From Lachnospiraceae bacterium (GTDB taxonomy: Bacteria > Bacillota > Clostridia > Lachnospirales > Lachnospiraceae), in contig JAILLN010000009.1 of the NCBI GenBank assembly GCA_024693135.1, forward strand, positions 1 through 64,000: DNA of 64,000 bases. The letters are read 5' to 3'. Positions 19,080-40,463 of this stretch are shown piece after piece. Position 1 is the first letter of the stretch. Each line of letters begins with the position of its first letter. A program made the position numbers and the translations under genes. Under the pieces are notes generated by a model. It did not search any database and had not been told where the DNA came from. It saw only the letters and a program-made list of their open reading frames with translations.

Positions 19080-19119
19080 ACGGGAATCTGTTTGATAATG
19101 ACAGATTCCCGTTTCTTTG
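19080..19119 (+). terminator. Terminator after the leader-peptide genes
   Basis: ACGGGAATCTG (19080-19090) pairs perfectly with CAGATTCCCGT (19102-19112). The loop is 11 bases and TTCTTTG follows. This is a strong rho-independent terminator ending the sigma/peptide operon. The next promoter starts inside it. Confidence 0.8.
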
Positions 19120-19126
19120 TTATAAT
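19098..19126 (+). promoter_or_regulatory. Strong promoter of the sensor-kinase/exporter operon
   Basis: ATGACA (19098-19103) and a perfect TATAAT (19121-19126) are 17 bp apart. The -35 overlaps the 3' arm of the preceding terminator. It lies 29 bp upstream of the chosen REC-HD-GYP start, so the leader is very short. It probably drives 19155 to at least 32208. Confidence 0.75.
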
Positions 19127-19154
19127 GAAATTTACGGGGATGGGGGACGTGTCC

Positions 19155-20180
19155 ATGAGTGACTGGATCACAGTGGTTGACGATGATACATCAAACCTGA
19201 GGATGGCAAGCCATATCCTGAGCGGGGAGCGGCTCAGGGTCAGCTGTCTGCGTTCCGGGGAGGAGCTGCTGAAATTTTTGGAAAGCAACCGTCCGGATCT
19301 GATCCTGCTTGACATTCATATGCCGGGATTGAGCGGATTTGAGACCTTAGAGAGGATAAGGGCTGAGAAGGAATTAAGCGATATTCCGGTAATTTTCCTT
19401 ACTGCAGACGATGATACGGATACCGAGACAAAAGGACTCTCCGTGGGAGCGATGGATTTTGTAAAAAAACCCTTCGTTCCGGAGGTCCTTTTGCTGCGTG
19501 TAAGGCATACCATCGACCTGATCCGCCTGCAGGGAGACCTTTCCCGGGAGGTGGAGCAGAAGACCAGCGAGCTTCTGCAGGAGCATGAAAAGAATGAGAG
19601 AATGTCCCTGCAGATCGTTCTTGCCCTGGCCAGTGCCATCGACGCGAAGGATACCTATACCAACGGCCATTCCTCCAGGGTGGCGGATTATTCAAAGATG
19701 CTGGCCAGAAAGGCAGGCTATGGAGAAAAGGAGCTGGAGGAGATCTATATCATGGGGCTGCTCCATGACGTGGGAAAGATCGGGATCCCGGATGTGATCA
19801 TCAATAAGCCCGCCAGGCTTACCGAGGAGGAATATGACGTGATCAAGAACCATCCCGTCATGGGAGCCAGGATCCTGAAGAATATCACGGAATTTCCCAA
19901 GCTGGTGACGGGTGCCCGGTGGCATCATGAGCGCTACGACGGCATGGGCTATCCGGATGGGCTGAAGGGAGAGGACATCCCGATCGAAGCCAGGATCATT
20001 GCCGTGGCGGATGCTTACGATGCCATGACTTCAAGAAGGAGCTATCGCGACATCCTGCCCCAGGCCCAGGTCCGAAATGAGATCCTGACGGGAAAGGCGT
20101 CGCAGTTTGACCCATACTTTGCCGATCTCATGCTGACCATGATCGACGCAGATCCAGATTATCTGATGAGGGAGAGATAA
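19155..20180 (+). CDS. Response regulator with HD-GYP c-di-GMP phosphodiesterase domain
   Basis: I start at ATG 19155 (341 residues), because the longer frame from 19092 begins inside the terminator and promoter. The receiver domain (about 3-120) carries phospho-acceptor Asp53 in LILLDIHMPG. The HD-GYP domain (about 150-335) has HD at 204-205 in GLLHDVGKIGIPD and HHERYDGMGYPDGL. These domains usually hydrolyse c-di-GMP. It is the first gene of the kinase/exporter operon, and its likely phosphodonors are the hybrid kinases that follow. Confidence 0.92.
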   Translation: MSDWITVVDDDTSNLRMASHILSGERLRVSCLRSGEELLKFLESNRPDLILLDIHMPGLSGFETLERIRAEKELSDIPVIFLTADDDTDTETKGLSVGAMDFVKKPFVPEVLLLRVRHTIDLIRLQGDLSREVEQKTSELLQEHEKNERMSLQIVLALASAIDAKDTYTNGHSSRVADYSKMLARKAGYGEKELEEIYIMGLLHDVGKIGIPDVIINKPARLTEEEYDVIKNHPVMGARILKNITEFPKLVTGARWHHERYDGMGYPDGLKGEDIPIEARIIAVADAYDAMTSRRSYRDILPQAQVRNEILTGKASQFDPYFADLMLTMIDADPDYLMRER

Positions 20181-22904
20181 GTGGGAGAGGAGATCAGACA
20201 GAGGGAAAGACAGAAGATATCACATCTTGTCATCCTGGTGAGCTATACCATCCTCACATTGGCTTTGACATGCGAGACCGTGCTTCTGGGCTGGGAATAC
20301 TGGATGATTCCCATCCTGTTTTTCTTTTTAGGGGGATCCTGGGTGCTGCATGTCCTGCAGATCCTTCCGGAGCGGAGCCGGATGTGGATCTATGTCTGGC
20401 TCATGATGTGCGTGTTCTTCTTCTACGGCATCCACGAAACCAGTATTTTTGACCTGGCGCCCCTCATGTGCGTCGTGATCATGATCTATTCCATGACGGG
20501 AGCCCCCGGGCCGGTCATCGTGGGCATGTTCACTTATTTCCTGACCATGATCTATGATTTTACCTTTGAGATCATCCGGGGGTACCGGCCGGATTCCCTT
20601 GTCATCTCCAGGACGATGCTTCATTTCATGCTGGTCATCATGGCGGGATATCTGGCCCGGTTCATGATCCTGAGGCAGAGGAACGACCGGAAAAAATACG
20701 AGGAACGGATCGGGGAGCTGGAAAGCATCAACCAGAGGACGGAGGATTTCCTGGCCAATGTATCCCATGAGCTGCGCACCCCCATTAACGTGGTAACCGG
20801 CATTACCGGGGTCATGCTGAAGAGGGAGAGGAATGCAGAGAACAGGGAGCAGCTATCTTCGGTAAGGGATGCGGGGCGGAGGCTTTATGAGACCATAGAA
20901 GATATCCTGGACTATACCGAGATCGATACGGGACGGGTCACGGTCTCTGCTGAGCCATACCTGATGGATTCCATCATCAATGACCTGATCACGGAAAACC
21001 GGCAGTTCATGATAGACGGAGACTGTGAGGCGATCTTTGATGTGGCGCCGGAGATCCCGGCCCAGCTTATAGGAGACGGCGTCAAGATAAAAAAGATCCT
21101 GCGGCATCTTCTGACCAATGCCGTGAAATTCAGCCGGGGAGGGGGAGTCTATGTCCGGGTCACCGCATTGAAAAAAAACTACGGCGTGAACCTCTGCCTC
21201 CTTGTGGAGGATACCGGCATCGGGATGAGCAGGGAGGAAACGGAGCGGATCACGGAAAGCTTTTATCAGGCAGACTCCGGGAGGAACCGGGCGGCGGGCG
21301 GCCTAGGCCTGGGGCTTTCCATTGTAAACGGACTGACCCGGGCCATGGACGGCTTCATCCAGATCGAAAGCCAGAAGGGGAAGGGGACGTCCATCCGGCT
21401 CAGCATCCCCCAGGGCGTGGCAGATGATTCTCCCTGCATGTCCGTGGCAGACAAAGAGCACCTATGCCTGGCCTGTTACTTAAGGCCGGAAAAATACGAG
21501 ATACCGGAGATACGGGATTATTATAATGCCCTGATCGCCAATCTGGTGAACGGCCTGGGGGTGTCCCTCCATAGGGTGAACAGCCAGGAAGACTTAGAAA
21601 AGCTTATGGAGGTATACCAGATCACCCATATTTTCATCGGCAGGGAGGAATATGAGGGAAATACCACCTGGTTTGAGACCCTGGATGAAAGCATTTCCGT
21701 AGTGGTGGTGGCAAATGACGGCTTCGTGCCGCGCAACCGGACCAGGGTGAGGGTGCTGAGGAAGCCCTTCTGCGGCGTGCCGATCGCCATGATCCTGAAT
21801 GCAGATTCTGACCTGTCCGAATTTGACCTATCCTCTGAAAAACAGATGTACTGCCCGGGAGTCCGTGCCCTTGTGGTCGATGACGAGACCATGAACCTTA
21901 TGGTGGCGGAGGGGGTATTCCGGGATTATGGCATGACTGTGCGCACGGCATTAAGCGGGGAGGAGGCATTACGGGTCTGCGCTGAGGAAGAATTTGATGT
22001 CATCTTCATGGACCACATGATGCCCGGCATGGATGGGGTAGAGACCATGAAGCAGCTTCGCAGGCAGCGTAAGAGCGGGGAGAGGAGGCGGATCATCATC
22101 GCCCTCACAGCCAATGCCGTGAGCGGAGCCAGGGAAATGTTTCTTTCGGAGGGCTTTGACGGCTTTATTCCCAAGCCCATCGAGCTGATGGAGCTGGAGC
22201 GTGTGTTAAAGAGGCTCCTTCCGGAGGAAATGATCCAATATGCCGAGCAGGATAAGAGCGCAAGGGAGGAAAAGGACGAGGTCTTAAAGGCCTTGGATGC
22301 CTATGGGATCAATACCAGGGAGGGCATCGGATATTGTCGGAATGACCGGGCCTTTTACCGGGAGCTTCTGCTTCGCTTTGCGAAGGACATGGAGGCGAAG
22401 AAGAAGGAGATCGAGGACTGCTATGACAAAGGAGACTGGGAGGGCTACCGGATCCGCGTCCATGCCTTGAAAAGTACAGCAAAGATGATCGGGGCGGACC
22501 GGCTTTCCGAGCTGGCCAGGAAGGCGGAGGATGCCTCCCGGACAAAGGACATTCCATACCTGAAAAGCCATGGCGGGGAGCTTATGGAGATCTATGAGGA
22601 TGCGGCCTTCGGCATCGAAGGGGTCATGTCGAATTCCATGGAGGAAGCCAGGGATGCGGGTACGGAGATCGCCATGCCGGATTATCTGAAGAGGCTCAGG
22701 GAGCTGAAGGAAAGGCTGGATACCTTTGAGGCCGAGAGGGCGGAGGAACTGCTGAATGAGATGGCCGGATTTCGGTATGAAGGGAAGCCTCTTTCGGAAT
22801 CCCTGGGGGAAATCTCCGTGCTGGTAGGCGATTTTGCCCTGGCGGAGGCATCGGAAAAGACAGGGGAGCTTATCGGCTCCATACAGGGAGGGCACGGGTC
22901 ATGA
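20181..22904 (+). CDS. Hybrid sensor histidine kinase (TM-HisKA-HATPase-REC-Hpt)
   Basis: A 907-residue membrane sensor with a GTG start overlapping the previous stop (TAAGTG). Six hydrophobic segments fill about 15-172 with no extracellular domain of note. The HisKA motif NVSHELRTPIN has His196, and an ATPase domain with GLGLGLSIV follows. A receiver domain has Asp611 in VIFMDHMMPGMDG and an Hpt domain has His761 in HALKSTAKMIG. It therefore contains a full four-step phosphorelay. It overlaps the DegV-fused kinase by ATGA and is paralogous to the protein at 32326. Confidence 0.93.
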   Translation: MGEEIRQRERQKISHLVILVSYTILTLALTCETVLLGWEYWMIPILFFFLGGSWVLHVLQILPERSRMWIYVWLMMCVFFFYGIHETSIFDLAPLMCVVIMIYSMTGAPGPVIVGMFTYFLTMIYDFTFEIIRGYRPDSLVISRTMLHFMLVIMAGYLARFMILRQRNDRKKYEERIGELESINQRTEDFLANVSHELRTPINVVTGITGVMLKRERNAENREQLSSVRDAGRRLYETIEDILDYTEIDTGRVTVSAEPYLMDSIINDLITENRQFMIDGDCEAIFDVAPEIPAQLIGDGVKIKKILRHLLTNAVKFSRGGGVYVRVTALKKNYGVNLCLLVEDTGIGMSREETERITESFYQADSGRNRAAGGLGLGLSIVNGLTRAMDGFIQIESQKGKGTSIRLSIPQGVADDSPCMSVADKEHLCLACYLRPEKYEIPEIRDYYNALIANLVNGLGVSLHRVNSQEDLEKLMEVYQITHIFIGREEYEGNTTWFETLDESISVVVVANDGFVPRNRTRVRVLRKPFCGVPIAMILNADSDLSEFDLSSEKQMYCPGVRALVVDDETMNLMVAEGVFRDYGMTVRTALSGEEALRVCAEEEFDVIFMDHMMPGMDGVETMKQLRRQRKSGERRRIIIALTANAVSGAREMFLSEGFDGFIPKPIELMELERVLKRLLPEEMIQYAEQDKSAREEKDEVLKALDAYGINTREGIGYCRNDRAFYRELLLRFAKDMEAKKKEIEDCYDKGDWEGYRIRVHALKSTAKMIGADRLSELARKAEDASRTKDIPYLKSHGGELMEIYEDAAFGIEGVMSNSMEEARDAGTEIAMPDYLKRLRELKERLDTFEAERAEELLNEMAGFRYEGKPLSESLGEISVLVGDFALAEASEKTGELIGSIQGGHGS

Positions 22905-25576
22905 GCAGGAAAAAATGGCTGGAAGTGCTGGAGGATCACAGCCTCAGCCTTCAGGAAAGGATGTTCCGGCTGCTCTCCGGCATCGCCATCGCGGCATTGA
23001 GCGTCCTGGTGGTCATGGGGCTCTGCCTGAGCGAATCCCTGGTCTACAATATCATGCTGATCCTTTCCCTTGCCCTATGCATCCTGATCAGCGGCTATGC
23101 CGTCCGCACCGGGAAGATCCAGCTTTGTGCCAATATCCAGTCCTTCCTCATCATATTCATCCTGATCCCGGTCACGTTCTTTACGGGAGGCGGCATCCGG
23201 AGCGGAGCGCCTCTCTGGTTTGTGTTTGCCTTCGTATACGTGAGCGTGGTGGTATACGGCAGGACCCGGTATGTATTCATCATCCTCGCGAGCCTCATGG
23301 CGGTGCTGGAGTATGTGGTTTCTTATCTGTATCCGGAATTTGTGACGGAGCACTCGGATGAGGTGTCATACTTAAGCTCCCTGATCGCTGTCCTGGTGGT
23401 GGGATCCTTATTCTGCCTGCTTTTCATCTTTGAGTCCAAGATCTACGAGTCGGAAAACAGGCTGGCACAGCAGCAAAAAAAAGAGATCGTGGAGCTGAAC
23501 GAGGCGCAGAACCGCTTCTTTTCCAGCATGAGCCATGAGATCCGGACGCCCATCAATACCATCATCGGGCTGGATGAGATGATCCTAAGGGAGGAGATCT
23601 CGGAGGAGGCCGCCGCAGACGCCCAGGATATCCAGAACGCCAGCAAGATGCTGCTGGCCCTTATCAATGATGTACTGGACATGTCCAAGATCGAATCCGG
23701 AAAGATGGAGGTGGTCTACGCCGCATACAGCGTGGGAGAAATGCTTTCGGATATTGTCAACATGATCTGGTCCAGGGCGAAGGAAAAAGGACTTGATTTT
23801 CATGTGGAGGTGGATCCTGCCATGCCGTCGGAGCTCATGGGGGATGAGGTGCGGCTGAAGCAGGTCATGATCAACCTCTTGACGAATGCCGTGAAATATA
23901 CAAAAGAAGGATCCGTGACCTTTTCCATCCAGTGCAGGAAGCTCTCGGCCAGCCGGGTCGTGGTGACCTATACCATCCGCGACACCGGCATGGGCATCCG
24001 GAAGGAAAATATCCCATATCTCTTCAGTGCCTTCAAGAGGGTGGATGAGGAAAAAAACCGCTTCATCGAGGGTACGGGCTTAGGCCTTTCCATCGTCAAG
24101 GAGTTTGTAGACCTTATGGGCGGGACCATTACCGTAGACAGCGTATATACCAAGGGCTCCACATTTGCGGTGGAGCTGGAGCAGGATGTGGCGGATGAGA
24201 ATGTGCTCGGGGATATCAATTTCGAGCTGCGCCATACCATGAATACCAGGGAGCATTACAGGCAGACCTTTGAAGCCCCGGATGCCAGGATCCTGATCGT
24301 GGACGACAATGAGGCGAACCTCATGGTAGAGGAAAAGCTTTTACGGGACACCCGGGTGCGGATCGATACGGTGCTGAGCGGGGAGGAAGCCTTGAAAAAA
24401 ACCGTACAGACCCAGTATCACGTGATCCTTATGGACCATCTGATGCCCGGGATGGATGGGATCACCTGCCTCCATCAGATCCGGGCGCAGACCGGAGGCA
24501 TGAATAAGAAGACCCCCGTGGTGATCCTGACAGCCAATGCCGGAAGCGACAACCGTGCCCAGTATGAGAGGGAGGGCTTTGAAGGATATCTCCTGAAGCC
24601 TGTCCGGGGAGCGGAGCTGGAGGCTGAGCTGGTCAGGCGGCTTCCCAAGGAGATGGTGAAGCTTACCAGCGCCTCGGAGGTGGTGGAGGAGATCCAGACA
24701 GCGGGCAGCAGGTCCATGAAGCGCAGACATGTCCTGATCACCACGGACAGCGTATGCGATCTGCCCCGGGAGATCCAGGAGCAGGGAGGCATCGAGGTAT
24801 TGCCCTACCGGATCCGGACAGACAAGGGAGAGTTTCTGGATGGGATCGAGACGGAGACCGGCGGCATCCTGGCCTATATGGCAGATGGAAAAAGAAGTGT
24901 CGTGTCCATGGCTCCTGAGGTGAGGGATTATGAGGTGTTTTTTGCCGACTGCCTTCTTCAGGCCAGGCATATCATCCACATTTCCATGGCAAAGAAGGAG
25001 AGCAAGGGGTATTTCAATGCTCTTGAGGCCGCCAAGTCCTTCAGCAACGTTACCGTGGTGGATTCCGGGCATCTTTCCAGCGGGCTGGGACTTTTGGTCA
25101 TGGAGGCGAGGAGGCTTTCAGAGAAGGACGTGCCGGTGGAGGAGATCGTATCCGGGATCGATGAAGCCGCGGAACGGATCCATACCTGCTTCATGGTCAG
25201 CGACACGGAATATCTGGCCCGCTCCGGCAGGGTCAGCCAGTTTGTGGATAATCTCTGCAGGGCATTCATGCTGCATCCTTCCATCGCAATGGATAAAAGC
25301 AGGATGAAGCCGGGGAATTTTACCTTTGGAACCCTGGAAAGAGCCAGGAGCCGTTTTATCCGCTATATCTTTGCCGACATAGACAGCATGGATAAGAGCT
25401 GCCTGTTTCTGATCCATTCGGGCATGAGCCTGGCGGAGCTGAAGGAGATCGAGGAGCAGATCCGGCAGAGGGCTTTGTTTGACCGGATCATCATCCAGCA
25501 GGCCGGCCCCGCCATTTCGGCAAACAGCGGTCCCGGAGCCTTTGGATTTGCATATATGAAAAGGAGAGCAGTATGA
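22901..25576 (+). CDS. Hybrid sensor kinase fused to a DegV (fatty-acid-binding) domain
   Basis: An 891-residue protein. About six membrane segments (20-185) precede HisKA with His212 in SMSHEIRTPIN, then HATPase_c (GLGLSIVKEF) and a receiver with Asp512 in VILMDHLMPGMDG. From about 608 to the end it carries a DegV domain: ITTDSVCDLP, VSMAPEVRDYEVFF, VVDSGHLSSGLGLLV, SDTEYLARSGRVS. DegV/FakB proteins bind fatty acids, so the fusion could let lipid state modulate phosphotransfer. There is no Hpt; the upstream partner kinase has one. I know of no characterised protein with this architecture. Confidence 0.9.
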   Translation: MSRKKWLEVLEDHSLSLQERMFRLLSGIAIAALSVLVVMGLCLSESLVYNIMLILSLALCILISGYAVRTGKIQLCANIQSFLIIFILIPVTFFTGGGIRSGAPLWFVFAFVYVSVVVYGRTRYVFIILASLMAVLEYVVSYLYPEFVTEHSDEVSYLSSLIAVLVVGSLFCLLFIFESKIYESENRLAQQQKKEIVELNEAQNRFFSSMSHEIRTPINTIIGLDEMILREEISEEAAADAQDIQNASKMLLALINDVLDMSKIESGKMEVVYAAYSVGEMLSDIVNMIWSRAKEKGLDFHVEVDPAMPSELMGDEVRLKQVMINLLTNAVKYTKEGSVTFSIQCRKLSASRVVVTYTIRDTGMGIRKENIPYLFSAFKRVDEEKNRFIEGTGLGLSIVKEFVDLMGGTITVDSVYTKGSTFAVELEQDVADENVLGDINFELRHTMNTREHYRQTFEAPDARILIVDDNEANLMVEEKLLRDTRVRIDTVLSGEEALKKTVQTQYHVILMDHLMPGMDGITCLHQIRAQTGGMNKKTPVVILTANAGSDNRAQYEREGFEGYLLKPVRGAELEAELVRRLPKEMVKLTSASEVVEEIQTAGSRSMKRRHVLITTDSVCDLPREIQEQGGIEVLPYRIRTDKGEFLDGIETETGGILAYMADGKRSVVSMAPEVRDYEVFFADCLLQARHIIHISMAKKESKGYFNALEAAKSFSNVTVVDSGHLSSGLGLLVMEARRLSEKDVPVEEIVSGIDEAAERIHTCFMVSDTEYLARSGRVSQFVDNLCRAFMLHPSIAMDKSRMKPGNFTFGTLERARSRFIRYIFADIDSMDKSCLFLIHSGMSLAELKEIEEQIRQRALFDRIIIQQAGPAISANSGPGAFGFAYMKRRAV

Positions 25577-25797
25577 GTGAATCGATATTTCGGGAAAAGA
25601 GCATAGAGAGGGTATCCTCTCCGGAGCAGCTGAATGACTATATCCATGTATCCGGCCCGAGCGTGTGGCTTGTCATGGCGGCCATGATCATTGTCCTTCT
25701 GGGGGTTCTCATCTGGAGCATTTTTGGCACGGTGGAAATGAATACGGCAGAAGGGAAGGCAGAGACAGTCCACCCGATTTCTTTTGTGATCAATTGA
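25573..25797 (+). CDS. Short NHLM/HlyD-like membrane anchor, apparently truncated
   Basis: A 74-residue protein whose first 55 residues match the start of NHLM-type HlyD secretion proteins (SIFREKSIERVSSPEQLNDYI, then a membrane segment at about 32-55 ending VLIWSIFGTVE). The periplasm-spanning HlyD part, normally hundreds of residues, is absent. Translation stops two bases before the peptidase exporter start. Tight packing and ATGA overlap with the upstream gene argue against a sequencing artefact. It may still be a functional small subunit. Confidence 0.7.
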   Translation: MSESIFREKSIERVSSPEQLNDYIHVSGPSVWLVMAAMIIVLLGVLIWSIFGTVEMNTAEGKAETVHPISFVIN

Positions 25798-25798
25798 T

Positions 25799-27964
25799 AT
25801 GAAAAAAGCGGAAAAAGGAAGGGTAAAAGTGCCGGTGATCATGCAGATGGAAGCCCTGGAATGCGGGGCGGCCTGTCTGACCATGATCCTGGCGTATTAT
25901 GATAAATGGATCCCCTTAGAGCAGGTAAGGAAGGACTGTGGCGTATCAAGGGACGGCTCCAATGCCAAAAACGTACTGAAGGCCGCCAGGGAGTATGGGC
26001 TTTCCGCCACGGGTTATAAAATCGAGCCCGAGGCACTTAGGGAAGAGGGGGAGTTTCCCTGTATCGTTCATTGGGAATTCAATCATTTCATTGTACTGGA
26101 CGGCTTCAAGGGGGATAAGGTCTATGTGAACGATCCTGCCCGGGGAGCCCTGACCATGTCCATGGAGCAGTTTGATGCCGGCTTCACCGGAATCTGCCTC
26201 ATGTTTTCTCCCGGGGAGAATTTTGAGCCGGGAGGAAAGCCGAAGAGCATCCTGGGCTTTGCCAGAAAAAGGCTTTCCGGTGCCGGGACGGCTGTGGCTT
26301 TTGTCGTCCTGACGACCTTGATCACTTCCCTGGCAGCCATCATCAATTCAGGATTATCCAGGGTCTTCATCGACCAGCTTCTGACCGGCCTCAACCGGAA
26401 CTGGCTCATGCCCTTCATTGTGGGACTGGGCATCCTTTCCCTGGTCCAGATCGTGGCCGCATGGATGCAGGCGATCTATTCCCTGAGGATCAACGGCAAG
26501 CTTGCCGTGGTGGGCAATACCTCCTATATGTGGAAGGTCCTCAGGCTTCCCATGGAATTTTTCACCCAGAGGATGGCGGGGGATATCCAGCAGAGGCAGA
26601 TCACGAATGCCTCCATTGCCAGCAGCCTGGTGGATACCATCGCTCCGCTGGCTCTGCAGACCTTTATGATGGTATTTTACCTGGTGGTCATGATCCGGTA
26701 CTCCCCGCTCCTGACGGCGGTGGGCCTGGGGGCCGTGCTGGGGAATGTGTGGATATCCCGTGTCATTTCCTCCAAACGGGTCAATATCACCCGGGTCATG
26801 ATGCGGGATGCAGGGAAGCTTGCCGGCACTACGGTATCCGGCATCGAAATGATCGAGACCATCAAGGCCAGCGGCGCGGAAAACGGATTTTTTGAAAAAT
26901 GGTCCGGATATCAGGCGAGCGTAAATACCCAGCAGGTCAGGTTCCTGAAGCTGAACGCTTACCTGGGGCTGATCCCTCAGATCCTGACCTCCTTAGCGGA
27001 TGTGGCTGTGCTGATCATCGGGGTGGGGCTTTGCATGAGGCATCATTTTACCACCGGCATGATCATGGCTTTCCAGGGATATATGACTTCCTTCATGGCT
27101 CCCGCCCAGTCTCTCATCAGCGCCGGCCAGATCATACAGGAAATGCGCACGGAGATGGAGCGCATCGAGGATGTCATGGAATACCCGGAGGATGAGAACA
27201 GCAAAAACGAAAGAGAATTATCCGAGGAAGGAAATTACGACAAGCTGGCCGGCCGGATCTCCATGAGGAATGTGACCTTTGGCTATTCCAGGCTGTCTCC
27301 TCCCCTGATCGAGAATTTCTGTCTGGAGCTTGAGCCCGGACGGAAGGTGGCTTTTGTGGGCGCCTCCGGCTGCGGTAAATCCACCTTAAGCAAGCTGATC
27401 TCCGGGCTGTATCAGCCTTGGAGCGGGGAGATCCTCTTTGACGGAAAGCCCATACAGGACATAGACCGCAGCGTTTTCACCGGATCTGTGGCCGTGGTGG
27501 ATCAGGATATCATCCTTTTTGAGGATACCATCGCCAACAATATCAAGATGTGGGACAACTCCATCGAGGATTTTGAAATGATCATGGCCGCCAGGGATGC
27601 CCAGCTCCATGAGGACGTGATGATGAGGGAGGGCGGTTACCAGTATAAGATCACAGAAGGCGGGAAGGATTTTTCCGGAGGCCAGAGGCAGAGGCTGGAG
27701 ATCGCCAGGGTGCTGGCACAGGATCCTACCGTCATCATCATGGACGAGGCCACCAGCGCATTGGATGCCAAGACAGAGTATGAGGTGGTGAAATCCATCG
27801 AAAACCGCGGGATATCCTGTATCGTCGTCGCCCACCGGCTGTCCACCATCCGGGATTGTGACGAGATCATCGTCATGGATAAGGGCAAGGTCATAGAGCG
27901 GGGGACCCATGAAGAGCTGATGAAGGCCGGGGGATATTATACCACCCTGGTCACGGCGGAATAG
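25799..27964 (+). CDS. NHLM-type ABC exporter with C39 peptidase domain
   Basis: This 721-residue protein cleaves double-glycine leaders and exports the peptide. The N-terminal C39 peptidase has Cys22 in ALECGAACL, His96 in NHFIVLDG and Asp112 in VNDPARG, a complete triad. Six membrane segments (about 160-450) and an ATPase with VGASGCGKST, SGGQRQR and IIMDEATSALDA follow. Its likely substrates are the two double-glycine leader proteins at 18379 and 18729. It pairs with the next ABC protein, as in NHLM systems. No lanthipeptide or YcaO enzyme accompanies it. Confidence 0.93.
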   Translation: MKKAEKGRVKVPVIMQMEALECGAACLTMILAYYDKWIPLEQVRKDCGVSRDGSNAKNVLKAAREYGLSATGYKIEPEALREEGEFPCIVHWEFNHFIVLDGFKGDKVYVNDPARGALTMSMEQFDAGFTGICLMFSPGENFEPGGKPKSILGFARKRLSGAGTAVAFVVLTTLITSLAAIINSGLSRVFIDQLLTGLNRNWLMPFIVGLGILSLVQIVAAWMQAIYSLRINGKLAVVGNTSYMWKVLRLPMEFFTQRMAGDIQQRQITNASIASSLVDTIAPLALQTFMMVFYLVVMIRYSPLLTAVGLGAVLGNVWISRVISSKRVNITRVMMRDAGKLAGTTVSGIEMIETIKASGAENGFFEKWSGYQASVNTQQVRFLKLNAYLGLIPQILTSLADVAVLIIGVGLCMRHHFTTGMIMAFQGYMTSFMAPAQSLISAGQIIQEMRTEMERIEDVMEYPEDENSKNERELSEEGNYDKLAGRISMRNVTFGYSRLSPPLIENFCLELEPGRKVAFVGASGCGKSTLSKLISGLYQPWSGEILFDGKPIQDIDRSVFTGSVAVVDQDIILFEDTIANNIKMWDNSIEDFEMIMAARDAQLHEDVMMREGGYQYKITEGGKDFSGGQRQRLEIARVLAQDPTVIIMDEATSALDAKTEYEVVKSIENRGISCIVVAHRLSTIRDCDEIIVMDKGKVIERGTHEELMKAGGYYTTLVTAE

Positions 27965-27972
27965 GGGACGGA

Positions 27973-30189
27973 ATGGGCTGGTTTGATGAACAGATAAAAT
28001 TGAGGAAGCAGGCAGACCGCGAGATATTTGAGGATTCTTTCCTGGAGATCGCGGGTGCCGTCATGGGAAAGAAGCTTTCCGCCGCATTGAATGACAGGAC
28101 AAAGCAGGCAAAGGATGCCATCGATGAGATCCTGAAGTATTATCATGTGAAATCCCAGGAGATCCCTGACGGCATGGAGGATATCAATGACGTGCTGGAG
28201 TTTCTCTTAAGGCCCTACGGCATCATGCGGCGGAGCGTGGATCTGGATCCGGGATGGGAAAAGGATGCGGCCTTCGCCATGATGGGCACAAGGACGGATG
28301 ACGGGAGCGTGGTAGCTCTGATCCCGGATCCGATCTATGGCTATACCTTTTACGATTCGGCTTCGGGAAAGCGCTTAAGGGTCACAAAGCAGAATGAGGG
28401 CATGATCGACCGGGAAGCGCTGGCCTTCTATAAGCCCTTCCCCATGAAGAAGATCGGGGTCCCGGGCCTTTTGAAATATATCTGGGAGAATATTTCCGTT
28501 TCCGACGTGGTCTTCTTTGTCCTGATCCTTGCCATCGTCACCCTGGTGGGGACGCTGCTGCCGAGGATCAATAAGCTGCTCTTTTCTGTGGTGGTGAAAT
28601 CAGAGAGCATGCAGGTGCTCTTTGCGGTGGCATCCTATCTGATCTGCGTCATCATCGGTACCCAGCTCTTTACCGCGGCCAAGAACCTTTTGATGACAAA
28701 GATTACCACAAAGCTGGATGTTTCGGTGGAGGCCGCCACGATGATGCGGATCCTGTCCCTGCCGGCCAGCTTCTTTAAGGACTATGGCTCCGGAGAGCTC
28801 TCCAGCAGGTCCCAGCATATCAAATCCCTGGTGCAGCAGATCCTGGATATGGGCTTTACTACGGGGCTTACTTCTGTATTTTCCCTGATATACATCGGCC
28901 AGATCTTTGTATTTGCCCCGGCCCTGGTGGTCCCCTCCGTGATCATCACTCTGATCACGGTAGCCGTTTCCATCATCAGTGCCTTGATGCAGATGGGGAT
29001 ATCGAGAAGGCTGATGGAGATCGAATCTAAGGAGCAGGGCATGGGTTATGCGCTGATCTCCGGGATCCAGAAGATCAAGCTTGCCGGAGCGGAAAAAAGA
29101 GCCTTTGCCAGATGGGGACGGCTTTATTCCAGGGAAGCGGAGCTCCTCTACAGCCCGCCGCTTTTCATCAAGATCAACAGCGTGATCACCACAGCGGTAT
29201 CCCTGATCGGTACCCTGGTGCTTTACTATGTGGCCGTGGTAAACGGCGTGCAGGTGGCGGATTATTTTGCCTTTAATTCGGCCTATGGCATGGTAAGCGC
29301 CGCCTTTCTTTCCCTGGCCGGGGTGGCCCTGGAGCTTGCCCAGATCAAGCCTACCCTGGAAATGGCAAAACCCATCCTGGAGGCTGTGCCGGAGATCGCA
29401 GAAGACAAGCAGGTGGTGGAAAAGCTTTCCGGAGGCATAGAGCTTAGCAATATCACCTTCCGGTATAAGGAAAATATGCCGCCGGTGCTCAATAACCTGT
29501 CATTGAAGATCAGGCCGGGGCAGTATGTGGCCATCGTGGGCAAGACCGGCTGCGGAAAATCCACTTTGATGCGGATCATGCTTGGATTTGAGACCCCCCA
29601 GAAGGGAGCGGTCTATTACGATGGGAAGGATCTGTCCCGGATCGACCTCAAATCCCTCAGGAGGAAGATCGGCACGGTAATACAGAACGGTAAGCTTTTC
29701 AACGGGGATATATTTTCCAATATCGTGATCTCCGCCCCCTGGCTGACATTGGATGATGCCTGGGAAGCCGCGGAGATGGCCGGCATGGCAGAGGACATCC
29801 GGGACATGCCCATGGGGATGTTTACCATGATATCCGAGGGGCAGGGCGGGATATCCGGAGGGCAGAAGCAGAGGCTCATGATCGCCAGGGCAGTGGCGCC
29901 CAAGCCCAGGATATTGATGTTTGATGAAGCCACCAGCGCCCTGGATAATCTGACCCAGAAAAAGGTGTCGGATTCCCTGGATGCCCTGAAATGCACCAGG
30001 ATCGTGATCGCGCACCGGCTTTCCACCATCCGCAACTGCAACCGGATCATTGTCATGGACGGGGGAAGGATCATCGAGGATGGCACCTATGATGAGCTGA
30101 TCGCAAAGAATGGCTTTTTTGCGGAGCTGGTCAAGAGACAGAGGATCGATCAAGAGGGACCGGAGAAGGATGCCGGGAAACAGGAATAA
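27973..30189 (+). CDS. NHLM-type ABC transporter, second subunit (ATP-binding/permease)
   Basis: 738 residues with an N-terminal soluble region (about 1-170) typical of the second NHLM exporter, a membrane domain (about 170-450), and an ATPase with VGKTGCGKST near 522-530, SGGQKQR near 627 and MFDEATSALD. It lacks the C39 domain, so it probably forms a heterodimer or parallel exporter with the preceding protein. Eight bases separate the genes. Confidence 0.9.
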   Translation: MGWFDEQIKLRKQADREIFEDSFLEIAGAVMGKKLSAALNDRTKQAKDAIDEILKYYHVKSQEIPDGMEDINDVLEFLLRPYGIMRRSVDLDPGWEKDAAFAMMGTRTDDGSVVALIPDPIYGYTFYDSASGKRLRVTKQNEGMIDREALAFYKPFPMKKIGVPGLLKYIWENISVSDVVFFVLILAIVTLVGTLLPRINKLLFSVVVKSESMQVLFAVASYLICVIIGTQLFTAAKNLLMTKITTKLDVSVEAATMMRILSLPASFFKDYGSGELSSRSQHIKSLVQQILDMGFTTGLTSVFSLIYIGQIFVFAPALVVPSVIITLITVAVSIISALMQMGISRRLMEIESKEQGMGYALISGIQKIKLAGAEKRAFARWGRLYSREAELLYSPPLFIKINSVITTAVSLIGTLVLYYVAVVNGVQVADYFAFNSAYGMVSAAFLSLAGVALELAQIKPTLEMAKPILEAVPEIAEDKQVVEKLSGGIELSNITFRYKENMPPVLNNLSLKIRPGQYVAIVGKTGCGKSTLMRIMLGFETPQKGAVYYDGKDLSRIDLKSLRRKIGTVIQNGKLFNGDIFSNIVISAPWLTLDDAWEAAEMAGMAEDIRDMPMGMFTMISEGQGGISGGQKQRLMIARAVAPKPRILMFDEATSALDNLTQKKVSDSLDALKCTRIVIAHRLSTIRNCNRIIVMDGGRIIEDGTYDELIAKNGFFAELVKRQRIDQEGPEKDAGKQE

Positions 30190-32325: not shown

Positions 32326-34362
32326 ATGAATCAAAGGAACAATGAAAAATTCATTGTCTTTGTCGCCACGCTGGGTTCGGTAGGGCTGATCCTGGAAAAC
32401 ATGCTGATGGGATGGGAATTCTGGGTTCCGCCAGTGGTATTGATCGGGACGGTCTATCTCTGGGTCATCCATCTGTCGGAACGGATCGATGAGAGGATCC
32501 GGAGAGGCTTTTATTTTGCTTTTGCGTCACTTCTTCTTTTTTATCACAGCGTACATAAGACGAGTTTCTTTGACATTGCGCTGTCGGCCATCCTGGTAAT
32601 GACGATCTACTCCCTGCTTAACAGCGTTTATATGATGCATGCCGTTCTGCTTGAATTTTTTGCCCTTCTGTTCATCCATTTCATCAATCTTCCGGGAGGA
32701 GAGGCGCTTTCATATGACAGGCTCACCGTTTCCCGGATCCTGCTCCATATCGCCATCGTGCTCCTGATCTATTATTTCTGTGTCAGATCCATCGGGGACA
32801 GGCTGGATGATGAGGAAGAAAACCGGATCAAGGACGAACGGATCGCAAGAAATGATTCCAGCATGGAGGATTTCCTGACCAATATTTCCCATGAGCTGAG
32901 GACGCCGGTCAATGTCGTAAACGGCATGTCCGATCTGCTGATCAAAAAAGGCGTGGGATATGAAGCGGATTCCATCAAAAGCGCGGGAGTGCGGCTTGCC
33001 TGGCAGATCGAGGATATCCAGGATTATACCGAATGCAAGAGAAATAAGGTATTCCTGGAGGAAGATAATTACATGAGCACCTCCCTGATCAATGATGTGG
33101 TCACGAGCTTCCGGTCGAATGAGAATGCCCAAGGCCTGGAGCTGGTGGTGGATCTGGATCCGAGAGTTCCTGCCATGCTTAAGGGCGATATCAAAAAGCT
33201 CCATAAGATATTCCGGCATCTGCTGGAAAATGCCGTGAAATTCACGAAGGCCGGCGGGATCTACGTGAGATTGTTCACGGAGAAAATGGATTATGGGGTG
33301 AACCTGAGCATCGAGATGACGGATACGGGGATCGGCATGGAAAAGAAAGCACTGCAGGTCCTTACCGAAGGGATGTATCAGGAAAATAAAAAGAGGAACC
33401 GCAGCTCCGGCGGCATCGGACTGGGCCTTTATATCGTATATGGGTTTGCCCACTCGATGGGAGGCTTCGTCAAGATCGAAAGCGAGAAGAGAAACGGTAC
33501 CATGATCCGGGTCACCGTGCCGCAAAAGGTGGTGGATGAAACACCCTGCCTGACCCTGGCGGATTCCTTTGAGGGAGTGGTCTTATTCCATGTCAAGCCG
33601 GATAAGTACAAGGTACCGAAGCTGCGTGATTTCTACCGCGGCATGGCTTCAAATCTTGCATCGGGGGTCCATGTTCCCCTGTATGCCGCCGAGACGGTTT
33701 ATGAGGTAGAGCGGCTGAAAGAGAAAATGAATGTCACCCATATCTTCATGGGGGAGGAAGAATATGAGGAGAACCGGGGATATTTCGAGGAATTGGCCAA
33801 AGAGGATATTGTGGTCGCCGTATCGGCAGGCGCAGACCTCAAGATTTCCGAAAACAGCAGAGTCTGTCTGATGCCCAAGCCGCTTTACGCCTATCCGGTC
33901 ATCAAGATCCTGAATGAAGGCAGATATGAACAGGAAACGGACGATCACGAGAAAAAGGAACGGCCGTCATTCCATGGCATAAGATCCCTCGTCGTGGATG
34001 ACGAGCCCATGAATCTTATCGTGGCGACCTCTCTTTTCAGGGATTACGGAATGCTCGTGGATACGGCGGGAAGCGGAAGGGAAGCCATCCGCAAATGCAG
34101 GGATAATGCATATGACCTGGTCTTTATGGATCATATGATGCCGGAGATGGACGGCGTGGAAGCCATGAAGCAGATCCATTCCCAGTCGGAAGAGCTGAAT
34201 CAGGAGCTTCCGGTGATCGCGCTTACGGCGAATGCGGTATCGGGAGCCAGGGAAATGTTTATCCGGGAGGGCTTTGAGGGTTTTATCGCCAAGCCTATCA
34301 ACCGGTCGGATTTTGAAAGAGTGGTGCAGAGAGTGCTTCAGGGAAAGGGGGTGGAGGCATAA
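32326..34362 (+). CDS. Hybrid sensor histidine kinase (TM-HisKA-HATPase-REC)
   Basis: A 678-residue membrane sensor paralogous to the protein at 20181, sharing features such as H(E/K)TS(I/F)FD and IYSLLNS-like membrane segments (about 10-160). The HisKA motif NISHELRTPVNVVNG has His189. HATPase_c with GIGLGLYIV and a receiver with Asp602 in LVFMDHMMPEMDG follow. It lacks the C-terminal Hpt present in its paralogue; the next protein carries one instead. The stop overlaps the next start by one base (TAATG). Confidence 0.92.
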   Translation: MNQRNNEKFIVFVATLGSVGLILENMLMGWEFWVPPVVLIGTVYLWVIHLSERIDERIRRGFYFAFASLLLFYHSVHKTSFFDIALSAILVMTIYSLLNSVYMMHAVLLEFFALLFIHFINLPGGEALSYDRLTVSRILLHIAIVLLIYYFCVRSIGDRLDDEEENRIKDERIARNDSSMEDFLTNISHELRTPVNVVNGMSDLLIKKGVGYEADSIKSAGVRLAWQIEDIQDYTECKRNKVFLEEDNYMSTSLINDVVTSFRSNENAQGLELVVDLDPRVPAMLKGDIKKLHKIFRHLLENAVKFTKAGGIYVRLFTEKMDYGVNLSIEMTDTGIGMEKKALQVLTEGMYQENKKRNRSSGGIGLGLYIVYGFAHSMGGFVKIESEKRNGTMIRVTVPQKVVDETPCLTLADSFEGVVLFHVKPDKYKVPKLRDFYRGMASNLASGVHVPLYAAETVYEVERLKEKMNVTHIFMGEEEYEENRGYFEELAKEDIVVAVSAGADLKISENSRVCLMPKPLYAYPVIKILNEGRYEQETDDHEKKERPSFHGIRSLVVDDEPMNLIVATSLFRDYGMLVDTAGSGREAIRKCRDNAYDLVFMDHMMPEMDGVEAMKQIHSQSEELNQELPVIALTANAVSGAREMFIREGFEGFIAKPINRSDFERVVQRVLQGKGVEA

Positions 34363-37300
34363 TGAATCTGACCGAATGGATCAAATCTGCAATCCATGCC
34401 GTGAAGGATCCCGAGAGGGATTTCTCTGAACGGATCTTTCTGATCCTTTCCCTGGCATCCGAGGCGGCCATGATCATCGCCCTGATCGGGGATCTGTGCA
34501 TAAAGGAGAACCCATTTGAGATCGCGGTGATCACAGGAACCCTGATCGTTGTGCCCATCATCTCCCTGCTGGGCCTGCATTTCGATAAGCTGAAGATCGC
34601 CATCCGGACCACCGTGATCTGCCTGGTATTCATCATCCTTCCTGCGTTGTTTTTCTTTGGCGGAGGCGTGAAGGGCGGAGGCGTGATCTGGATCATCTAT
34701 GCGTTTATCTATGTGGGACTGCTTCTCCGGGGCACCTGGCGCAATGTGATGTTTTCCTGCATTGCGGTTTTTGCCATGATATGCTATTTCATCAATTACT
34801 ATTATCCCTGGCTGGTATACCGGCATTCGATAAGCAAGTTCTATGTGGATAACCTGATCTCCCTTATCCTGGTGGGCGTCCTCTCTTATATCATGACCTG
34901 GTCCCAGGGCCAGCTTTTTAAGGATGAAAATGAGCGGGCAAAGAAGGCGGCAGAGAAGGCAGAGGAGCTTACACGCAGCCAGAACCGGTTCTTTTCCAGC
35001 ATGAGCCATGAGATCCGTACCCCCATCAATTCCATCCTGGGATTGAATGAGCTGATCCTGAGGGATGAGTACGCTTCGGATGACATCGTAAGGGATGCGT
35101 CCGGCATCCAGGGCTCCGGGAAGATGCTCCTGTCCCTGATCAATGACATCCTGGACTTTTCCAAGATCGAAGCCGGGAGCATGGATATCGTTCCCGTGGA
35201 TTATAAGATCGGGGACATGCTGTCGGAGATCGTGAACATGCTTTGGCTCAGGGCACACGATAAGGGCCTCAGCTTTGAGGTGAGCGTGGATCCGGACGTT
35301 CCCATGGTGCTCTATGGGGATGAGGTCCGCATCAAGCAGGTGATCATCAATCTCTTAAATAATGCGGTAAAATATACGAAGGAAGGGAGCGTGGAGCTCC
35401 GGATCGAAAGCAGGGAGCCCGACAACGAGTCGGTAGAGCTGGTGATCTCCATCTCAGATACCGGAATGGGGATCAAGAAGGAGGATATCCCATACCTGTT
35501 TGACGCATTCAAGAGGGTGGACGAGGGAAAGAACCGGCATATCGAAGGGACGGGCCTGGGGCTTTCCATCGTGAAGCAGCTTGTGGAGCTGATGGATGGA
35601 AACGTTACCGTAAACAGCGTCTACGGCGAGGGCACGACCTTTACGGTGGTGGTAAAGCAGGGCGTATCGGATCATACCAGGGTGGGTGAATTGAACATCC
35701 ACAACCAGCAGGTGGTGAGGAGGAGCGCCTATGAGAGCAGCTTCCTGGCGCCGGAGGTGAGGATCCTCATTGTAGATGATAACGAAATGAATCTGGAGGT
35801 CGAACGCAGGCTTCTGGAGGATACGGATATGGGCATCGACACGGCGCTGAATGGGAAAGAGGCTTTGGAGAAAAGCCAGAAGGTGCATTATGATGCCATA
35901 TTCATGGACCACCTTATGCCGGAAATGGACGGCATAGAGTGCCTGGAGTGCTTAAGGAACCAGCAGGGAGGGCTCAACAGGAATACGCCGGTCATCGTGC
36001 TGACGGCCAATGCGGGAAGCGAGAATAAGGAGCTGTACAACCGGGCCGGCTTTGACGGATATCTGGTAAAGCCTGTTTCAGGTGAGGCCATGGAAGAAAC
36101 CCTGATCAAGCATATCTCCAGCGAAAAGATCATCCTGCGCTCCGTGATGTTAGGGAATGATGAGGAGATCCATGCTTCCGAAGGATATGCGGACAAAGTG
36201 CCCGTCATCATCACCTCCTCCAACATGTGCGACCTTCCCGAATCCCTGATCCGGAAGCTGCATATCCCCATCATCCCCTTTGTGATCAAAACCGAGGAGG
36301 GCGTGTTCAAGGATGGGGTCCATATGGATGCGAATGAACTGATCCGGCATATTTCCGCCGGAAAAGAAGCGGTCTCCTTCCCGCCGGATGAAGCGGCATA
36401 TACGGACTTCTTTGCTGAAATATTGAAAAGGACCCACCATATCATCCATATTTCCATCACCACGAGCATGAGTGAGGATTATGCCAGGGCCAGTGAGGCC
36501 GCAAAATCCTTTGACAATGTTACGGTGATCAATTCGGAATGCCTCTCCAGCGCCACGGGGATTTTGGTCATGATCGCCTGTAAGCTGGTACAGCAGGGAA
36601 TGCAGGCGCAGGAGATCATTGCAGAGCTTGAAGTGATAAAACACCGCCTGAGGTGCAGCTTTGTGATCGACAACACGGAATACATGGCAAGGAAGGGCCT
36701 CGTGAGCATGCGCCTGCATAAGTTCGCAGAAAGCTTCAACCTGCATCCGGCCTTAAGGATACGGGAGGATAAAGCGGGACTTGGCGGCATCTGGTTTGGA
36801 CGGACCCGGAGAGCTTACAAGAAATACATCCACAGTGCCCTGCCGCCGGATACGATCCCGGAGTCGGAGGTAGTATTTATCACATATGTGGATGTTCCCC
36901 TGGAGACACTGACATGGATCGAAGAGGAGATCCGGAAGACGGCATATTTTGAACATGTGATCTTCCAGCAGGCCTCTGCGGCCATTTCATCGAACTGCGG
37001 GCCGGGAACCGTCGGCATCCTGTATATGCTGAAGTCGAATAAGACCTATAACATTGCTTCATTTATCGACAGCGAGGTGGCATCGAGGGAGGATCTCCAG
37101 GAAGAACCGGGTAATGAGGTCCAGGGATCCGGGGGAGGCACCGCGGATGAGGCTTCCCCGGAAGAAGAGGAGTACCTCGAAGAGGAAACCGGCCTGGAAG
37201 AGGGGACTTATCCGGAAGAAGACCAGGAGGAAACCGAAAAGGAACTGCAGGAAGAAAAGTGGTATGATAAAATAAAAGGCATCGATGCAAAGGCGGCCAT

Positions 37301-37844
37301 CCAGAACAGCGGATCAGAGGAGGCATTTAAGGCTGTGGTCCGGATCTTTTATGATTCCATACAGGATAAGCATGGGGAGCTTGAAGGCAGCTTCACTTCC
37401 GGAGACTGGGAAAATTATACCATCAAGATCCATGCCCTGAAGAGCTCGGCCAGGCTTGTGGGTGCCATGGAGCTTGGCCGAGAGGCAGAGCTTCTGGAAG
37501 CGGCGGGGAAGGAAGGCAACATCTCCTATATCGAAGAGCATCATGCTTCCGTCATGGAGGATTACCTGCATTACAAGGAAGCCTTCGCAGAAGTCTTTGA
37601 GCAGGAGGCAGAAGGAGCAGAGGAAGGATCCGGGAAGCCGGAAGCAGATGAATTCTTGATGGAGAGCATTTACGAGGAGCTTCGTGATGCGGCAGAGAAT
37701 ATGGACTGCGACAGGATCGAGGCTGCCTTGCAGGAGATCGGGGAATACGCCATTCCGGCGAAGGAAAAAGATCGGTTCGCCCTTGTCTGCGAGAAGGCGG
37801 ATCTTCTCGATTATGAGGGAATGCTTCAGGCACTTGAAAAATAA
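34362..37844 (+). CDS. Hybrid sensor kinase with DegV and Hpt domains
   Basis: An 1160-residue paralogue of the protein at 22901. Membrane segments fill about 25-185. HisKA has His216, HATPase_c shows GLGLSIVKQL, and the receiver has Asp516 in AIFMDHLMPEMDG. A DegV domain spans about 610-905 (ITSSNMCDLP, IDNTEYMARKGLVS, AISSNCGPGTVG), somewhat diverged from the usual TDSTADLP start. A very acidic linker rich in EE pairs (about 910-965) leads to an Hpt domain with His1024 in HALKSSARLVG. It joins kinase, possible lipid-binding and phosphotransfer functions in one chain. Confidence 0.9.
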   Translation: MNLTEWIKSAIHAVKDPERDFSERIFLILSLASEAAMIIALIGDLCIKENPFEIAVITGTLIVVPIISLLGLHFDKLKIAIRTTVICLVFIILPALFFFGGGVKGGGVIWIIYAFIYVGLLLRGTWRNVMFSCIAVFAMICYFINYYYPWLVYRHSISKFYVDNLISLILVGVLSYIMTWSQGQLFKDENERAKKAAEKAEELTRSQNRFFSSMSHEIRTPINSILGLNELILRDEYASDDIVRDASGIQGSGKMLLSLINDILDFSKIEAGSMDIVPVDYKIGDMLSEIVNMLWLRAHDKGLSFEVSVDPDVPMVLYGDEVRIKQVIINLLNNAVKYTKEGSVELRIESREPDNESVELVISISDTGMGIKKEDIPYLFDAFKRVDEGKNRHIEGTGLGLSIVKQLVELMDGNVTVNSVYGEGTTFTVVVKQGVSDHTRVGELNIHNQQVVRRSAYESSFLAPEVRILIVDDNEMNLEVERRLLEDTDMGIDTALNGKEALEKSQKVHYDAIFMDHLMPEMDGIECLECLRNQQGGLNRNTPVIVLTANAGSENKELYNRAGFDGYLVKPVSGEAMEETLIKHISSEKIILRSVMLGNDEEIHASEGYADKVPVIITSSNMCDLPESLIRKLHIPIIPFVIKTEEGVFKDGVHMDANELIRHISAGKEAVSFPPDEAAYTDFFAEILKRTHHIIHISITTSMSEDYARASEAAKSFDNVTVINSECLSSATGILVMIACKLVQQGMQAQEIIAELEVIKHRLRCSFVIDNTEYMARKGLVSMRLHKFAESFNLHPALRIREDKAGLGGIWFGRTRRAYKKYIHSALPPDTIPESEVVFITYVDVPLETLTWIEEEIRKTAYFEHVIFQQASAAISSNCGPGTVGILYMLKSNKTYNIASFIDSEVASREDLQEEPGNEVQGSGGGTADEASPEEEEYLEEETGLEEGTYPEEDQEETEKELQEEKWYDKIKGIDAKAAIQNSGSEEAFKAVVRIFYDSIQDKHGELEGSFTSGDWENYTIKIHALKSSARLVGAMELGREAELLEAAGKEGNISYIEEHHASVMEDYLHYKEAFAEVFEQEAEGAEEGSGKPEADEFLMESIYEELRDAAENMDCDRIEAALQEIGEYAIPAKEKDRFALVCEKADLLDYEGMLQALEK

Positions 37845-39698: not shown

Positions 39699-40463
39699 AT
39701 GAGCGAAGGAAACAAGAAGATCGTCATCGTTGCGCTTCAATACAGCGTCATTGTAAAGGGCGTGGAGCGCAAGCTGATGGATGCGGGATACTGGGTGGAG
39801 ATCCTTTCGGAGAAATTCGAGACCATAAAGGACATAGCATGCACAACCGACTTGTTCCTGCTTTACCTTCCCAACGACATTTCAAATAATCTGGTCATGC
39901 TGGAGAGGCTGATCTCGATCCATGACATGATAAAGACCAGCGGGAGGAAAGAGCTGCTTGTGGGAGAAGCCAATGACCAGGGACAGCTGCGGCAGAAGAA
40001 TCAGGCTCTTGGGGAGCTGCCCTGGATCAGCAGGCCCATCGAGATGAGCGTGCTCGGTCCTGCCATAGAGGGTGTCATTTCCGGGAAAGACATCCCCGGC
40101 AGGAGGAAGAGGCTTTTGATCGTGGATGATGATCCTTCCTATGCCAAGATGATCAGGGAATGGATCAAGACGGATTTCCAGATCGACATCGTGACCGCAG
40201 GAATGCAGGCCATTACCTTTCTGCTGAAGAATGAGGTGGACCTGATCCTGCTGGACTATGAGATGCCGGTGGTGGATGGCCCTCAGGTGCTGCAGATGCT
40301 GAGGCAGGAGCCGGTGACGGAAAAGATCCCCGTGATCTTCCTTACCGGGATCGGCACGAAGGAGGCGGTAGAGCGGGTCATGGCCCTGAAGCCGGACGGA
40401 TATATCCTGAAATCCACCACACGAGATAATCTCCTGACATATCTTCACGGGAAGCTCGGCTGA
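39699..40463 (+). CDS. Atypical response regulator with two receiver-like domains
   Basis: 254 residues. The C-terminal receiver (about 135-254) has Asp186 in LILLDYEMPVVDG plus the acidic pair VDDD and Lys in YILKS. The N-terminal half (about 8-130) resembles a receiver fold but lacks the phospho-acceptor motif, so it may be a pseudo-receiver. There is no DNA-binding output. It probably works by protein contact with the kinases upstream. GGAGGGC provides the ribosome binding site. Confidence 0.85.
   Translation: MSEGNKKIVIVALQYSVIVKGVERKLMDAGYWVEILSEKFETIKDIACTTDLFLLYLPNDISNNLVMLERLISIHDMIKTSGRKELLVGEANDQGQLRQKNQALGELPWISRPIEMSVLGPAIEGVISGKDIPGRRKRLLIVDDDPSYAKMIREWIKTDFQIDIVTAGMQAITFLLKNEVDLILLDYEMPVVDGPQVLQMLRQEPVTEKIPVIFLTGIGTKEAVERVMALKPDGYILKSTTRDNLLTYLHGKLG

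Follow-up and report, generated by a model that had tools for sequence, protein, structure and literature searches.

What is a DegV/FakB-type domain doing at the end of a complete hybrid histidine kinase? The question arises in a stretch of 64,000 nucleotides from a Lachnospiraceae bacterium (GenBank assembly GCA_024693135.1, contig JAILLN010000009.1, positions 1 to 64,000 of the forward strand; here called the window), where an earlier note, made from the sequence alone, had described such a fusion at 22901..25576. Our results suggest that this protein, HK2a, works as one of a pair with the hybrid kinase encoded just upstream, HK1a, and that its DegV domain, derived from FakB, is probably no partner of FakA but serves a twin-kinase relay as a sensor. 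The genes and domains concerned are as follows:

22901..25576, + strand: HK2a, hybrid histidine kinase with C-terminal DegV, 891 amino acids (open reading frame list, profile searches)
22970..23428, + strand: HK2a membrane region (hydropathy scan; hydrophobic segments inside residues 24-176)
23504..23701, + strand: HK2a HisKA, phospho-His 212 (profile match, residue check)
23840..24184, + strand: HK2a HATPase_c (profile match)
24290..24628, + strand: HK2a receiver (REC), Asp 512 (profile match, residue check)
24731..25561, + strand: HK2a DegV/FakB-fold domain, residues 611-887 (profile matches, alignment, structure comparison)
20181..22904, + strand: HK1a, partner hybrid kinase, HisKA-HATPase-REC-Hpt (open reading frame list, profile searches)
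19092..20180, + strand: receiver-HD-GYP regulator with an HHExxDGxGYP motif (profile match, sequence)

The region behind the HK2a receiver scored above the cut-offs of both DegV models used (PF02645, 148.6 bits, cut-off 27; TIGR00762, 164.8 bits, cut-off 99.7). In a structure comparison in which the top Foldseek chains were re-aligned with VIA, the two-domain DegV fold was present at full length, and the closest solved structures were DegV/FakB proteins, many with bound fatty acid. Thus, the domain that the earlier note had placed after the receiver is real, and the PF02645 search and the fold comparison by which it proposed to check this agree. HK2a also has the residues of a hybrid histidine kinase, namely the HisKA histidine, the HATPase N box and the receiver aspartate and lysine, which are identical in 40/40 of the HK2 rows compared. 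Note that, by the hydropathy scan, the membrane region leaves too little space for a large extracytoplasmic domain.

The fusion is not a single case. In at least 28 of 150 genomes sampled from the same family, DegV was matched within a reading frame of 786 amino acids or longer, and it was found in frames longer than 700 amino acids (E up to 1e-55) in 6 of 291 genomes of a class sample and 3 of 398 of a phylum sample. When named genomes were scanned, 350 pattern matches and 319 relatives were obtained, of which the best 80 of 319 were kept; DegV was joined to receiver or kinase domains in 79 of these 80 loci, and the remaining one, L069, is truncated where its contig begins. By name, 40 of the loci belong to Lachnospiraceae, 20 to Oscillospiraceae, 3 to Eubacteriaceae and 1 to Acutalibacteraceae; 15 have no family placement and 1 comes from a Treponema metagenome-assembled genome (MAG; L050), and MAG names, the Treponema one especially, can be wrong. 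The fusion in the earlier note therefore stands, but as a member of a widespread family, in which DegV recurs together with receiver or kinase domains, the kind of co-occurrence that the note had suggested looking for. Since this family recurs in many genomes, an assembly artefact or a chance fusion was ruled out.

The pairing with HK1 is conserved too. The HK1a and HK2a genes overlap by 4 bp. Besides the window, we examined 120 loci with their flanks (the 80 named ones and 40 picked by us from genomes of the same class); once the duplicates L128 and L205 were removed from the pair counts, they held 116 distinct fused HK2 copies, 6 of them too close to a contig edge. In 109 of the remaining 110, an HK1 gene lies at most 800 bases upstream. 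Among the carriers of the pair is the cultured commensal Schaedlerella arabinosiphila DSM 106076 (L042). With the two pairs that have an unfused DegV, this makes 111 pairs, in 41 of which the genes overlap, in 69 of which they are separated by 0-149 bases and in 1 by more. By the same models, none of 12 control stand-alone DegV genes (L001-L004, L181-L187, L195) had a kinase gene beside it within the flanks available, which were mostly up to 1.5 kb, and about 6 kb for L195.

The two kinases of a pair, moreover, never both carry an Hpt domain. In 109 pairs, the Hpt was on HK1 only in 98, on HK2 only in 8, on both in none and on neither in 3. Two of these last three (L130, L191) have a separate Hpt gene adjacent; the third (L072) has a short HK1 frame of 391 amino acids, in which HisKA and Hpt were not found. 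A Fisher test on the counts including duplicates (0, 100, 8, 3) gave p = 4e-10, but we rely on the exclusivity itself and not on this value, since the copies share ancestry and, judging from the tree, Hpt position has changed only about twice. A profile built on the tails of HK1 (73 sequences) scored 88-129 bits on the 7 tested HK2 proteins with an Hpt and 108.6 bits on the separate Hpt gene of L130, and matched none of 9 kinases without Hpt at E up to 10; judged by this profile, the Hpt of HK2 is a member of the HK1 Hpt family. A further Hpt kinase adjoins the pair at some loci (e.g. L121, L124, L112), so the one-Hpt rule is limited to the pair itself. The earlier note had remarked that DegV sits where an output or Hpt domain is normal. 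Since the Hpt is carried by the upstream partner or, in a sub-family, follows the DegV domain, DegV is no stand-in for it. With its place varying between HK1, HK2 and a gene of its own, the Hpt provides a clear natural example of how domains are shuffled inside a single signalling unit.

What became of the FakB residues was addressed by comparing 118 fused DegVs, the 2 unfused ones beside HK1 and 51 other stand-alones (L031 and L069, parts of fused proteins, are in neither residue count). We use what we take to be FakB2 numbering, T61, S93, R170, R202 and H266; counted along the 4x9x alignment, Thr, Ser, Arg, Arg and His were found there, and the R202 column is the Arg of an Arg-Gly pair common to stand-alone DegVs. 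At the R202 position, Arg is present in 51/51 stand-alones, 0/2 unfused copies beside HK1 and 1/118 fused copies, 101/118 of which have Met, Ile, Val, Phe or Leu instead; HK2a has Phe. HMMER places FakB1 Arg205 one column further, where the 118 fused copies have 117 Gly, 1 Ser and no Arg; in the column two to the right of the R202 position, 4/114 fused copies have Arg. At the R170 position, Arg was found in 51/51 stand-alones, 1/2 unfused copies and 63/118 fused copies, being present in HK2a and replaced by Leu in HK2b, a second fused kinase of the window. The H266 position is His in 48/51 stand-alones, and Asn in both unfused copies and 115/118 fused ones, HK2a among them. Both hydroxyls, at T61 and S93, are present in 50/51 stand-alones, 2/2 unfused copies and 96/118 fused copies.

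In FakB1, whose equivalent residues are T62, S95, R173, R205 and H270, binding to FakA is reported to depend above all on Arg205, which also forms the centre of the membrane-encounter patch, and catalysis to require Arg173 (PMC8892158). Because this docking Arg is gone in 117/118 fused copies, the fused DegV is probably not a FakA partner, and its loss offers a simple annotation mark to tell signalling DegVs from FakBs that serve FakA. In HK2a the T61, S93, R170 and H266 positions are occupied by Ser, Ser, Arg and Asn; with both hydroxyls and the R170 Arg in place, fatty-acid binding by this copy is plausible. The acyl-tail positions are less telling. One of them is presumably FakB1 F263, going by the title of a structure entry. 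Among the 118 fused copies, the A121 position is Leu in 103, the A158 position Ser or Thr in 106 and the F263 position Ala in 109, residues that seem neither to prove the pocket nor to close it. A121 and A158 of FakB1 lie near the acyl tail according to the same study (PMC8892158).

The unfused DegV genes of L196 (3176-4084) and L197 (7191-8042), which are rows L036 and L033 of the tree and residue tables, overlap the end of a HisKA-HATPase-REC-Hpt kinase (HK1) gene, and their products share the Asn for His266 and the hydrophobic residue for R202 with the fused ones. In a quick tree of 105 rows, with support from the Shimodaira-Hasegawa-like approximate likelihood ratio test (SH-aLRT) and no bootstrap, these two and all fused DegVs form one clade (SH-aLRT 99), and the fused clade proper (SH-aLRT 93) leaves them outside. 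The likeliest order of events, as read from the tree and residues, would begin with the entry of a FakB-like gene into an HK1 operon, followed by loss of FakA docking and, last, by fusion to the second kinase; fusion first, with the kinase part lost later, is the less likely alternative.

From all this we infer the following relay, from the flow of phosphate to the direction of control. HK2 (kinase-receiver-DegV) and HK1 (kinase-receiver-Hpt) would be the halves of one membrane-bound phosphorelay, in which each kinase autophosphorylates and transfers the phosphate first to its own receiver and from there to the one shared Hpt, which would hand it to an adjacent response regulator. Here this regulator would be the receiver-HD-GYP protein, a putative phosphodiesterase of cyclic di-GMP (c-di-GMP); elsewhere it would mostly be a single receiver and sometimes a GGDEF protein. 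DegV would serve as a FakB-derived cytoplasmic sensor of a fatty acid or similar acyl ligand taken from the inner membrane leaflet and would shift the kinase/phosphatase balance of the pair, and lipid state would thus set the c-di-GMP level or another receiver-mediated output. Taken as a whole, from twin kinases and shared Hpt to acyl sensor and output, this is the best explanation we have, and we give it about an even chance of being right. We put forward more tentatively, at somewhat under even chances, the wider proposal that gut Clostridia own a fatty-acid relay in which a hybrid-kinase operon captured a FakB that then lost FakA docking and became fused to a second kinase, and which feeds signals from acyl lipid in the membrane through an Hpt shared by the two kinases to c-di-GMP and other receiver outputs. 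With like reserve we suggest that its sensor is unrelated to RpfC, the layout being convergent, and that the lipid is the cell's own or of host or microbial origin.

Other explanations were weighed against this relay. HK1 and HK2 each have their own membrane region, kinase and receiver, as would two independent systems that are mere neighbours; yet HK1 adjoins HK2 in 109/110 copies with room and the Hpt positions are mutually exclusive, and we find such independence the most improbable of the alternatives. Scarcely better placed is the idea that DegV is an output, with the phosphorelay gating fatty-acid delivery to FakA and hence the incorporation of exogenous fatty acid. DegV does stand after the receiver, a usual position of an output, and the genome does encode FakA (YloV, TIGR03599, 627 bits). 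However, of the eight DegV matches in the genome (four in frames of at least 852 amino acids, four stand-alone), the stand-alones could serve FakA. Since the docking Arg is lost in 117/118 fused copies and the catalytic R170 Arg in 55/118, both being kept in 51/51 stand-alones, the output role is very unlikely; the earlier note had suggested a lipid-controlled signalling output, and an output in which DegV delivers lipid to FakA was discarded on the docking Arg. Input or modulation is likelier, and a second input is the simplest reading, because the kinase and receiver residues are the same in 40/40 HK2 rows and the docking Arg is lost; the tethered DegV would then sample acyl ligand at the membrane and act on HK2 and, by way of HK2, on the shared Hpt.

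A ligand-free scaffold, joining HK1 to HK2 or setting their geometry around a vestigial lipid pocket, is unlikely in our estimate but has more behind it: the hydrophobic residue at the R202 position in 101/118 fused copies could be a protein contact, an unfused DegV beside HK1 suggests a role with HK1, and the pocket hydroxyls are often lost once redundancy is reduced. Against it, both hydroxyls are kept in 96/118 and the window copy has a full-length DegV fold. That DegV senses a small ligand other than a fatty acid is also improbable, to a similar if slightly greater degree, given that the nearest solved structures belong to DegV/FakB proteins and in many cases contain a fatty acid. Returning to the acyl-sensing relay, several observations weigh against it. 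When copies are thinned to below 70% identity, both hydroxyls remain in 29/50 fused copies versus 47/48 stand-alones, so their retention is weaker than the raw count implies; in L188 and L189, which belong to a different family of the class, the two hydroxyl positions are Pro and Glu, which suggests a different ligand or none. Because of these losses in divergent members, ligand or function probably differs within the family. The Asn for His266 changes the carboxylate network, one fused copy (L179) does have Arg at the R202 position, and in the genome's four fused copies the R170 position is Arg only in HK2a, with Leu, Phe and Gln elsewhere. The pairing itself has one exception, L199, where HK1 lies about 2.75 kb upstream with a receiver gene between. 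Most adjacent regulators are single receivers and not c-di-GMP enzymes, and 21/111 pairs, one at a contig edge, have no adjacent regulator by the criteria used. Finally, neither the 40 neighbourhoods picked by us with the best 80 of 319 named loci nor the stand-alones, which were found with the fused profile, are random samples.

Of the 111 pairs, 61 adjoin a single receiver of less than 200 amino acids, 18 a receiver-HD-GYP protein, 6 some other GGDEF-motif protein, 4 a receiver of about 250 amino acids and 1 a receiver-receiver protein, the rest being the pairs with none found. One pair with a receiver of about 250 amino acids also has a receiver-Hpt gene, and the HD-GYP protein of L200 also has a GGDEF motif. 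We take the HHExxDGxGYP motif of the window's 19092..20180 protein to be the HD-GYP motif. The true start of its gene may be the ATG at 19155, which a promoter-like site at 19098-19126 would fit, but the number of sites in that promoter scan did not exceed chance.

A second pair in the window has its Hpt behind the DegV domain:

32326..34362, + strand: HK1b, partner of HK2b, HisKA-HATPase-REC without Hpt (profile searches)
34362..37844, + strand: HK2b, second fused kinase, HisKA-HATPase-REC-DegV-Hpt, 1160 amino acids (profile searches)
36207-37028, + strand: HK2b DegV (profile match)
37335-37529, + strand: HK2b Hpt (profile match)
38149-39672: Na/alanine symporter, between HK2b and the next gene (74% identical to L121 9047-10573)
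39699..40463, + strand: receiver protein, 254 amino acids, C-terminal REC, possible output of the second pair (profile match)

HK1b and HK2b share 1 overlapping base, and no receiver-HD-GYP gene lies within 500 bases of the pair. The N terminus of the 254-residue protein, judged by eye only, is a degenerate receiver. In L121, the closest relative found for HK2b, a symporter also follows the DegV-Hpt kinase. Receivers of about 250 amino acids with a C-terminal REC and, again by eye, an N-terminal degenerate receiver recur at L123, L125, L130, L191 and L192, beside pairs whose Hpt is carried by HK2 or encoded separately. Another fused copy of the same genome (L120; contig C18, 4810-7332 and beyond) has its DegV broken by a frame change, which may point to a pseudogene or to faulty assembly; the neighbouring HK1-type kinase has an Hpt and no receiver recognised by the domain models. 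As to the locus named Treponema (L050), a contig from a roe deer reticulum MAG, it holds a complete pair and a REC-HD-GYP gene, and reflects either horizontal transfer or mis-binning.

Downstream of HK2a, the window continues with genes of another kind:

25573..25797, + strand: gene of 74 amino acids, overlapping the HK2a stop by 4 bp (partial NHLP secretion protein match)
25799-27964 and 27973-30189: NHLP exporter ATP-binding cassette subunits 1 and 2 (NCBIfam profile matches)

The 74-residue protein probably represents a truncated NHLP-type secretion adaptor, because it matches only the start of the model, the first 44 of 421 positions, with 42 bits under a cut-off of 156.2. Relay and exporter may form one transcript in this genome. 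Membership of the exporter in the conserved unit was rejected: when its two transporters were compared by blastp with all open reading frames of the examined loci, the other loci gave only partial matches of 36-39% identity (L115, L201), and in a separate look at neighbouring genes neither transporter was hit. The NHLP leader peptide family had no match in the genome, and none in 14 control genomes either.

The gut is rich in long-chain fatty acids, and their perception by gut Clostridia is, to our knowledge, poorly understood. The conserved twin-kinase relay is a concrete candidate for such a sensor, with a readable output in c-di-GMP turnover or receiver phosphorylation. In the open-licence literature, no title among the matches listed has a kinase-DegV fusion as its subject, which agrees with the earlier note's remark that none had been seen described. 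Published work reports DegV genes beside hemolysin III genes (PMC3146951), DegV sometimes as one domain of a multidomain protein (PMC12288450) and a FakB4 thought not to feed phospholipid synthesis (PMC10138225). No model of the full architecture was among the best 25 of 139 NCBIfam release 20 families for HK2a; the kinase-DegV architecture is probably already in domain databases. Hybrid-kinase phosphorelays themselves are known, and what seems new in this one is a fatty-acid carrier put to another use.

How does this relay compare with known systems? From FakB and other DegV proteins the fused family differs by its hybrid kinase, and by the docking Arg and pocket His being replaced nearly throughout. 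The RpfC/RpfG system of Xanthomonas is similar in the layout of HK1, membrane segments followed by kinase, REC and Hpt beside a receiver-HD-GYP gene, an arrangement found in the window at 19092-22904. In that system a fatty acid, the diffusible signal factor (DSF), activates the kinase (PMC5391125). The signal proposed here is also a fatty acid, but the likeness we claim is in layout only and not in sequence, and here another hybrid kinase, the one fused to DegV, is present in addition. In the Vibrio relay, several hybrid kinases (LuxN, LuxQ, CqsS) share one Hpt protein, LuxU; the shared Hpt is alike, whereas here the two kinases are encoded by adjacent genes and the Hpt is usually built into one of them. 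Finally, the structures compared with the window DegV include entries 2iu4 and 2iu6, which we take to be DhaQ of Lactococcus lactis, a co-activator and a case of a metabolic ligand-binding subunit turned regulatory sensor. DhaQ has a related fold and a like history of repurposing as a sensor, but its partner is a transcription factor and not a histidine kinase.
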